DNA of 64,000 bases. Origin: Chloroflexota bacterium (lineage in GTDB: Bacteria > Chloroflexota > Dehalococcoidia > Lucifugimonadales > UBA2985). Below, piece after piece: positions 7,794 to 11,080 of the stretch. The notes beneath the pieces were generated by a model. The model searched no databases, was not told the origin of the DNA, and worked only from the letters and a program-made list of their open reading frames with translations. The DNA lies in contig JAPPHY010000003.1 of NCBI GenBank assembly GCA_028877205.1, forward strand, positions 1 to 64,000, in the 5' to 3' direction. The position numbers and the translations under genes were made by a program. Position 1 is the first letter of the stretch, and each line of letters begins with the position of its first letter.

Positions 7794-10259
7794 ATGCGTT
7801 CCTACGACAACTGGCACGCGCGACTCGCAATGGGCCTGCTCGCGGCTCTGCTGGCCGTAGCCTGCACGCAGGCACAGCCTACGCCAAGTCCGATCCCTTC
7901 GCCGTCCGCGACACCACCGCCGGCGCCCACTCCCAGTCCAACGACCGTCCCGACACCGACGGCCACGGCCGCGCCGACGCAAACGCCGTTGCCCACGGCA
8001 ACCCCCATACCGACGCTCCAGCCCACACCGGTCAGGGAGCGGAACGCCAACCTTGCCCCGTTCAGGCCGCGCTCGTGGACGTACCCGCTAGTGGCCGCGC
8101 CCACTCTCGGCTCGCAGAGAGTCGACGTACTCTCCGTGGACTCCGACACATACATCAGCTGGGCAGTTGGCAACGACGCGTTGGGAAGCGTGGACTACCC
8201 CTTCTTCGTGGACGTGTACCTTGACGGCGTCCTGGCTGAGCGGTGGTCTATGCCGGGCCTGGGAGCAGACGAGGTCATCGCCCTGACGGACTGGGAGAAG
8301 CTCAAAGAGAGGATAAGGCTGGATCCGGGCAGCCACACGCTGAGACTGGTTGTGGACCCGACCGACCTGGTGCCGGAGCTGGACGAGAACGACAACGTGT
8401 ACGAGGTGCAGTTCACCTGGGAGGCTCCGTCCGAGCCCGCGGCCACGCCGGCAGCTCCACCGAACCGGCTGCCGGACCTGGCTCCGGCGATCCCGGACGG
8501 CTGGACAGACTCGCTCATTGCAACGTCATACAGCGGCGACAGGACGGACGGGCCTCTGTCCGTGAACGTCCCCACGTACATCAGCTACGGCTTTCGCAAC
8601 GAGGGCCTCGCCAGCTTCGAGGAGAGGTCGTGGGTGTACCTGTACCTGGACGACGTGCTGGTGTCCGCTCAGGTTGGCGTGGGCCTGCTGGCCGAGGAGA
8701 CGGTCGGCAGCGCCCAATGGGTCGGCCTGCTCGACTCGATCAACCTGACGCCGGGTGTGCACAAGCTACGCCTGGAGCTGGACGCGACCAACCTGATCGA
8801 AGAGGCGGACGAAAGCAACAACTCCATCGAGAAACTGTTCATGTGGGGTCAGGGCGCCGTCGCGCCGATGACGCCCGGCCCAACGCCAACGCCGCGCTTC
8901 ATACCCGAGCCTCTCACGCTGCCCAACCTGGTGCCAGGCTGGCGGCTTGACTGGGACGGCCCCATCATGGTCTCGCACGAGCTGGGCACATTCCGCAATA
9001 GCCCGCTAACCACAGACATGGTCCCCCACGTGGATGTGGTTGTCCACAACGAGAGCACTGTGGCGGCAACGTTGCCATTCACGGTCGACCTCTACCTGGA
9101 CGGAGCGCTGGCACACTCCTTCGACTTCGAGGATGCCATGCACCCCAACGCGCTGTGGTGGTCGGCGGACTGGGACGGCCTCGGCGGCGAGGCCGGTGTC
9201 ACTCCAGGCGAGCACACGCTGAGGATGGTCATCGATCCCGACAACCGGGTGGTCGAGGCCAACGAGGCAGACAACGAATACGAGGTCACGCTGAGCTGGA
9301 TCAGCGGCCCATTGCCCGAGCCGTCGCCCACCACGTACACGCAGGATGAGCTGCGCGCGATGCTCTCCGACCTGCAGGAGTTGGTGGACAACCGGGAGCC
9401 GGTCCTTGAGCCCGGAGTTCGCGACAATACCGGGGACGTGCTCCGGGTGGCGGAGGCGGGCTACTACCTGCTCACCGGCACTAGCCTCCGCGACGAGCGC
9501 GTGGACGTCTACCTGCTCAACCAGCGCGAGTACATTGACTGGATCGACGACCACTACATCGAGCGGCTGGCGCTTACCGACGGCGCGGACCGGGCCGCAA
9601 TCCTGGTCGAGCGGGACTACGTGCTGGAGCACTCGGGCGGGCTGAAGCTGCCACGCTACGGCAAGATCGCTGTGGCGGTCGACGCAGAGCGCGGCATGGC
9701 GGAGGTCATCGGCTCGCTGATGCACGAGCTGGGCCACATGCGACAGTCCCTGCTCAACCCCAACCAGGGCCGGGGAACTTCGTCACGCGATCCGGATGCC
9801 CTGAAGGAGGCTCAGGCGCAGCAGTTCGAGCGGGCCTTCTGGCTGGAGATGGAGCGATTCACCGGCCTGGAGCTCCTCTCCTTTCCGGACCACCCCGGGC
9901 TGAACGACCTCATCAGCTTTGGCTTTGATACCTGGTTCGCCGAGCCGGACGTGAGCGTGCACACATTCGGGTTCCTGATCCAGTGGCTGTCCGTGCTGGG
10001 CGACCCGAACCTGGTGCACCTCAAGGAGGAGCTGACGTCCCAGGGGCGGCTGGGTCGCGACGCCTCGCTGGAGCTGTACGACTACCTGGTGGCCCTGCCC
10101 GCGGAGTCCGTGGAGGCGTATGTGCAGGCCAGGGCGCAGTCGATCCCGACGCACGGCGAGACCATCAAGGAGATTGCGACAAGCAGGCTTGTTTCCGACC
10201 TCCACCCGGACCGTGAGGGCTCTCCCAGCCTTCGGGAGATGGGACTGCTTGCGCCATAG
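7794..10259 (+). CDS. Lipoprotein with three CARDB repeats and a C-terminal HExxH zincin-like domain
   Basis: The 821-aa exported lipoprotein has an N-terminal hydrophobic segment ending in lipobox LAVAC (Cys 24 or so), then about 55 residues rich in Pro/Thr/Ser that work as a cell-surface spacer. Three repeats of about 130 residues follow (roughly 85-215, 225-350, 375-500). Each starts NLAPF/DLAPA/NLVPG and ends in a pattern such as [17 protein letters not shown], typical of CARDB adhesion-like beta domains. The C-terminal third holds HELGHM near residue 644, a zinc-metallopeptidase motif. Transcription appears leaderless. The ligand or substrate is unknown; a surface-bound peptidase with adhesive domains is the simplest reading. 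Confidence 0.85.
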
Positions 10260-10309: not shown

Positions 10310-10383
10310 TGCCGAGTGGTGTAGCGGTAGCACGCCTGACTCTGGATCAGGTAACCCTGGTTCGAATCCAGGCTCGGCAGCCA
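10310..10383 (+). tRNA. tRNA-Gln (anticodon CUG)
   Basis: The 74-nt cloverleaf includes an encoded CCA. Acceptor TGCCGAG (10310-10316) pairs with CTCGGCA. The anticodon stem CCTGA/TCAGG (10335-10339, 10347-10351) encloses loop CTCTGGA with anticodon CTG at 10342-10344, and the T arm is CCTGG-TTCGAAT-CCAGG. Discriminator G. Confidence 0.95.
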
Positions 10384-10576
10384 GCTTGCTTTCTCTTCAA
10401 CAACACTGCGTTCGCCTCTTCACTTATCCCAAGCTGCTCAGTGTCGCCGCGGCCGTGAGGACGGCCTATCCTGATAGACGGAAGCTGGCCTGGGAGCTTT
10501 GAGAGACAAGCTTGGTATGGTACGCTTAGATGTAGGAATACCAAACAGGCTACTTCATCGCCTCGTGGGAGGGAAC

Positions 10577-11080
10577 ATGGGCCAGAAACTGAAGCAGGGC
10601 GATAGATTTCCATCGATCGCGCTGAGGCTGACCAGCGGCGAGAGCGTTACCTTGCCGGACGGCATGCCCAGCCGCTATGCCGCAGTGCTCTTCTACCGCG
10701 GCCACTGGTGAGGCTACTGCAAGCGGCAGTTGGCCGCGTGGGAGGAGCGCAAGGCGGAGCTGGAGGAGTTGGGCGCCACCGTCTACGCCGTCAGCGTGGA
10801 TACCCTTGAGCAGTCGCAGGAAGTGGCCGAACGCGGCCTGACATTCCCTATCGCCTATGGTGCGACCCGCGAGGACGCCGACCTGATCGACGCCTGGTGG
10901 GACGACGGCCACGGCGGTCACATTCAGCCGGCGGAGTTTCTCCTGGGACGCGGCGGCGTGGTTCTCGGCTCCATGTACGCATCCGGTCCGGTGGGCCGCA
11001 TGTCAGCCGAGGAAGCCATCCAGCTGATAAACTCCCGGGAGCAGCGCCGGCGCGAGCGGGAGTCAAGCACGACCAGCTAG
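10577..11080 (+). CDS. Peroxiredoxin-like (AhpC/TSA-type) protein, probable selenoprotein with in-frame TGA (Sec45)
   Basis: Thioredoxin-fold redoxin predicted to reduce peroxides or disulfides. Reading through TGA 10709-10711 gives 167 aa: residues 1-44 contain KQGDRFPSIALRL and end in VLFYRGHW, the TGA is residue 45, and GYCKRQLAAWEERKAEL follows. Known homologues have the form YRGxWCxYCxxQL, so the TGA stands at the active-site Cys and leaves a U-x-x-C motif with Cys48. After it come VYAVSVDTLEQSQEVAERG and a normal redoxin C-terminus. GGAGG at 10568-10572 supports ATG 10577. Both halves share one frame with no shift, and a hairpin surrounds the TGA. The alternative is a nonsense-mutated gene, but the exact position favours selenocysteine. 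No sel genes are in the window. Confidence 0.8.
10697..10738 (+). promoter_or_regulatory. Candidate bacterial SECIS hairpin around the TGA codon
   Basis: Two nested or alternative folds are visible. Immediately after the TGA, GGCTACTGC (10712-10720) pairs with GCAGT plus GGCC (10726-10735) across loop AAGCG with one bulged T at 10731. A larger arm CGCGGCCA (10697-10704) is perfectly complementary to TGGCCGCG (10731-10738) and encloses the TGA. The loop is closer to the TGA than in E. coli fdhF, so recognition by SelB is inferred. Confidence 0.5.

Follow-up and report, generated by a model that had tools for sequence, protein, structure and literature searches.

A UxxC peroxiredoxin-like selenoprotein gene from a Chloroflexota bacterium, and its relatives in the order that includes SAR202

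A gene interrupted by a single in-frame TGA lies at positions 10577 to 11080 of the stretch of DNA analysed here (the window; 64,000 nucleotides from a Chloroflexota bacterium), and we are almost certain that it is a selenoprotein gene of the UxxC peroxiredoxin-like (Prx-like) type, with insertion of selenocysteine (Sec) predicted at codon 45. A sequence-only reading of the window had proposed a probable Sec-containing redox enzyme at this place; the sel genes of the genome, the conservation of the TGA among homologues and the membership of the protein in PF00578 all support that proposal. The features of the gene itself are as follows.

10577 to 11080, forward strand: UxxC Prx-like selenoprotein gene, 167 aa with predicted Sec at codon 45, stop codon TAG
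10567 to 10573, forward strand: Shine-Dalgarno-like GGGAGGG, purine-rich and 5' of the ATG, from reading of the sequence
10709 to 10711, forward strand: in-frame TGA, putative selenocysteine U45 of RGHWUGYC
10718 to 10720, forward strand: TGC encoding Cys48, second of the UxxC pair, aligned with the peroxidatic Cys of Bcp-type peroxiredoxins (2cx3)

The frame claimed by the sequence-only reading, from a ribosome-binding site and ATG through a TGA at codon 45, is confirmed: it is open from the ATG at 10577 to the TAG at 11078-11080, with the TGA at 10709-10711 its sole interruption, and it translates around that codon as ...FYRGHW[U]GYCKRQL... As that reading also foresaw, automatic annotation would split the gene, since standard ORF calling yields two pieces, 10499-10711 and 10730-11080. 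Joined, the protein matches the AhpC-TSA domain (PF00578) over residues 8-129, spanning the TGA, with an E-value of 1.5e-18 and 67.4 bits (cut-off 26). A loose mechanical count gives about 309 frames of the window that are readable across a single TGA, so a read-through frame is no evidence by itself. What goes beyond chance is the homology that flanks the TGA on both sides, together with the recurrence of the same TGA in homologues. Inspecting the list of TGA-interrupted frames by motif, we recognised no other selenoprotein candidate in the window, and the UxxC protein carries no obvious export signal.

The gene is closely preceded by a tRNA-Gln (CTG) at window positions 10310-10383. Further 5', positions 7794-10259 encode an 821-aa protein in which a Pro/Thr-rich linker is found together with CARDB repeats and a HELGH metalloprotease-like motif, and the window opens (1-779) with the 3' half of a 16S rRNA gene. 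Small groups of relatives share neighbours, and in the gene neighbourhood we found no partner conserved across the order, no conserved operon and no adjoining dedicated reductant gene.

The survey of homologues covered 250 genomes from the order, inclusive of SAR202, to which the window belongs. A match was found in 187 of these, and full-length matches almost always show one TGA. Codon 45 was counted in 91 extracted loci, of which 88 have TGA, two TGC and one TCA; homologues had been proposed as a check on the sequence-only reading, and this codon thus bears TGA or Cys and not stops scattered at random. In an alignment of 11 sequences (A1) there are invariant residues to either side of the TGA, Cys48 among them. 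Outside the order, the recovered homologues have TGC or TGT only (Ktedonobacter, Actinoallomurus, Bacteroidota, Proteobacteria and others), so that the WUGYC motif has Cys counterparts elsewhere. A scan of named genomes, with patterns drawn from the UxxC family itself and with limited coverage of other phyla, returned TGA forms solely from metagenome-assembled genomes titled Chloroflexi/Chloroflexota, Dehalococcoidia, SAR202 cluster or, in one case, Caldilineales. Among the carriers is SAR202 cluster bacterium bin127 (MPNN01000006.1).

One locus (L102) holds tandem copies, at 1627 and 2164, the first with TGA and the second with TCA (Ser) at the same codon. In a tree of 103 proteins the Ser form adjoins a Sec form, and four Cys forms group together within the Sec group. 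Four label changes are needed on this tree, which has several weak inner branches, some long rows and only a midpoint for its root. The simplest reading of the tree is reversion from Sec to Cys and from Sec to Ser.

The window lies on a contig (C1) of a draft assembly of 22 contigs and 2.0 Mb that is 96% complete, and the sequence-only reading had made its proposal conditional on Sec machinery in this genome. All four of selA, selB, selC and selD were found. The tRNA-Sec scores 70.3 bits, over the cut-off, and is called by ARAGORN as tRNA-SeC with anticodon TCA; SelA (552 bits; C1:93275-94603) is on the same contig as the window, and SelB and SelD score 345 and 366 bits respectively. With these, the genome has what it needs to decode UGA as Sec. 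It also holds two further TGA-bearing UxxC Prx-like genes, and its SelD is itself interrupted:

Contig C7, 68355 to 69275 (L018, 1495-2421), reverse strand: SelD with its own in-frame active-site TGA (CAGUASK)
Contig C9, 16667 to 17059 (L002, 1456-2400), reverse strand: second UxxC Prx-like gene, interrupted by a single in-frame TGA (FYRGFWUPFC)
Contig C15, 16228 to 16434 (L003, 1309-1914), forward strand: third UxxC Prx-like gene with TGA (FYRGSFUGVC)

A long Pro/Thr-rich repeat precedes the second UxxC gene, whose product is probably exported, and the N-terminus of the third is lipoprotein-like (LAAAACGSGG).

Across the order, tRNA-Sec was detected in 197 of the 250 genomes. It accompanies 93 of the 102 genomes with a Sec form, as against 104 of the 148 without (Fisher p 6e-5, uncorrected for relatedness or completeness). 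Nine genomes with the TGA form gave no tRNA-Sec match; completeness is 78 to 88% for those listed, and gaps in the assemblies may explain them. In G151, a genome where the close match is of the Cys form, no tRNA-Sec was detected either. Sec use that appears, from these genomes, to be pervasive in the order containing SAR202 is the mildly new part of this work.

Two explanations of the TGA that do not involve Sec have to be weighed against these data. That the gene is a pseudogene or the product of a sequencing error, its TGA having arisen lately by nonsense mutation or as an artefact of assembly, might be thought from the draft state of the assembly and from the splitting of the gene by automatic ORF calling. 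A recent or artefactual stop is nevertheless at odds with the same TGA standing in 88 of 91 homologues, which come from many families and were assembled independently, with a protein conserved on either side of it and with constraint on the RNA past it (described below), and we regard this explanation as extremely improbable. Equally hard to credit is that UGA has been reassigned throughout the genome to another amino acid, such as Trp, so that codon 45 would not be Sec. Three other genes found in this genome do have in-frame TGAs, as reassignment would predict, but those TGAs occupy redox or SelD active-site positions, the second UxxC gene terminates at a TGA, and the Trp codon of the window gene is TGG. 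Moreover, the tRNA with anticodon TCA passes the tRNA-Sec cut-off and is accompanied by SelA, SelB and SelD, and homologues have Cys, not Trp, at this codon.

In bacteria, the published model of the Sec insertion element (bSECIS) has a loop of 3-9 nt with G in one of its first two places, a stem of 4-16 bp, and a distance of 16-37 nt from the UGA to the loop (PMC13188914). A hairpin of this kind is predicted a short way past codon 45 of the window gene.

10723 to 10737, forward strand: predicted bacterial SECIS apical hairpin GCGGC-AGUUG-GCCGC, from folding, from the codon bias, pairing and covariation seen across 88 homologues, and from the model of PMC13188914

The hairpin begins 11 nt past the UGA and its loop 16 nt past it; the 5 bp stem, the loop AGUUG with G in second place and the 16 nt spacing all fall within that model. 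Downstream of the TGA, CGGCAGUUGGCC is kept with biased synonymous codons, and the block CGG CAG TTR GCC is frequent past the UGA in the 88 Sec forms. Arg50 is CGG in 73 of the 88 (25% background in the same genes), Gln51 is CAG in every one (71% background), and Leu52 is TTG or TTA in 81 (17% background), with TTA alone accounting for 28 (3% background); it is important to note that these sequences are related and the counts are not independent. The loop reads AGUU[G/A] in 81 Sec forms. Stem pair 15-29, numbered from the U of UGA, occurs as G-C (40), U-A (18), C-G (9) and U-G (5), and we take this variation as covariation; the inner stem pairs vary little. A hairpin of at least 5 bp can form in 85 of the 88 Sec forms, as against 48% of synonymous recodings, a loose measure given that the automatic finder sometimes settled on a different hairpin nearer the UGA (its loop 11 nt away, as in L081 and L089).

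Where CGC replaces CGG (L080, L105, L108, L110), a stem is restored in a slipped register, as judged by inspection and in part by computation, and by inspection alone one genus (L081, L083, L086, L089, L090, L094) can form AGCU-AGNY-AGCU instead. Two Cys forms (L079, L084) read RHL and are without such a stem, and in the Ser copy of the tandem pair the loop is AAUUA, its G gone. The energy of folding is less telling: the window hairpin is not more stable than its dinucleotide shuffles (z 0.04), and over the 88 sequences the free energy relative to synonymous recoding (mean z -1.03) is weaker than the codon counts. As the energy of the window hairpin is unexceptional, the case for a SECIS is a comparative one. 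Taken together, the apparent constraint on the RNA past the TGA fits a bacterial SECIS hairpin.

In a sequence alignment, Aeropyrum Bcp (2cx3) has the Ser of its SxxC opposite residue 45 and its Cys opposite Cys48. The TGA takes the place of the first Cys of a CxxC, which is the Thr/Ser position of the canonical TxxC, and this alignment places the protein in the UxxC thioredoxin-like type. An AlphaFold model with C in place of U has a peroxiredoxin fold (pLDDT 86.8), and in structure it comes closest to Sulfolobus Bcp4 and further Bcp/AhpC proteins. The statement of the sequence-only reading that the TGA sits at the peroxidatic Cys of homologues stands only in part: homologues do have Cys at codon 45, but the canonical peroxidatic Cys aligns with Cys48, and the label is justified only if U45 is the attacking residue.

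We propose that tRNA-Sec and SelB would decode the UGA at codon 45 as Sec, guided by the bSECIS hairpin; that the U45 selenolate would attack as the nucleophile; that Cys48 would then resolve, giving a selenenylsulfide with U45; and that thioredoxin, or some reductant like it, would recycle this bond. The substrate would presumably be a peroxide or a disulfide. The attack by U45 we consider reasonably probable. In the same selenoprotein, Cys48 might instead attack peroxide from the canonical peroxidatic position, as in a true peroxidase, with U45 as the resolving residue. Such a division of labour would suit the invariance of Cys48, the pairing of the two residues with the Cys and Ser of Bcp, and the Bcp and AhpC peroxiredoxins at the top of the structural matches. 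Selenolates, however, are normally the more reactive nucleophiles, and YRGxWU stands here where the peroxiredoxin motif has its PxxxT part. Such proteins are, furthermore, classed in the literature as thioredoxin-like UxxC proteins (PMC1088965), and we judge attack by Cys48 to be rather unlikely, and attack by U45 to be the better reading.

The broader picture that we draw, and towards which we lean only slightly, is that the Chloroflexota order including SAR202 is a major, largely undescribed Sec-using clade in which the UxxC enzyme is kept as Sec across most of the order, the bSECIS shifts in register and sequence under a constant protein, and the hairpin decays where Sec has, rarely, gone back to Cys or, once, become Ser. 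If this is true, the order offers a natural series for the evolution and death of SECIS elements. The paired forms with Sec, Cys and Ser, in which decay of the hairpin follows the residue, provide a test set for SECIS function. With the window gene, a selenoprotein type seen mostly in metagenomic reads gains a home at phylum level, and a demand for selenium in these bacteria is implied. Because standard ORF calling splits or truncates such genes, and because no NCBIfam model passes its cut-off with the window protein, the enzyme will probably be overlooked or given a wrong annotation in a widespread bacterial group. Two other identities were rejected. A TxxU peroxiredoxin is contradicted by YRGHWUGYC, which lacks PxxxTxxU, by the alignment, in which U45 falls on the Ser of the 2cx3 SxxC, and by the score of its model NF040737, 21 bits against a cut-off of 270; a SelL-related redox protein (NF040769) scores 25 bits against a cut-off of 120.

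By title, abstract or term match, in coverage that leaves most subscription journals outside, we found no report of a UxxC selenoprotein in SAR202 or Chloroflexota. The type itself is known from marine metagenomes, as the sequence-only reading had stated (PMC1088965, PMC2398784). The Prx-like UXXC protein of the Sargasso Sea is, like ours, distantly related to Prx and has a thioredoxin-like UXXC in place of TXXU, although it is assigned there to COG0450 and is likened here by description (PMC1088965). 'Prx-like 1' (PF00578, UxxC), with 225 selenoproteins in the Global Ocean Sampling selenoproteome, shares the Pfam family, the motif, widespread Cys homologues and a marine source; that set derives from metagenomic reads, and the likeness drawn here is one of family and motif (PMC2398784). 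The Prx-like thiol:disulfide oxidoreductase (PF00578, UxxC/UxxU; WP_010940744.1), predicted with high confidence, has the same Pfam family and motif (PMC13188914), but is known from Geobacter and other Deltaproteobacteria (PMC13188914, PMC1794560), whereas the present group is from Chloroflexota. PrxU-type Sec peroxiredoxins (TxxU) share the peroxiredoxin fold and carry Sec at the canonical peroxidatic place, while the Sec of the window protein would lie three residues earlier. Our conclusion from these comparisons is that the UxxC Prx-like selenoprotein type is already published and that the window gene is a genuine further member of it.
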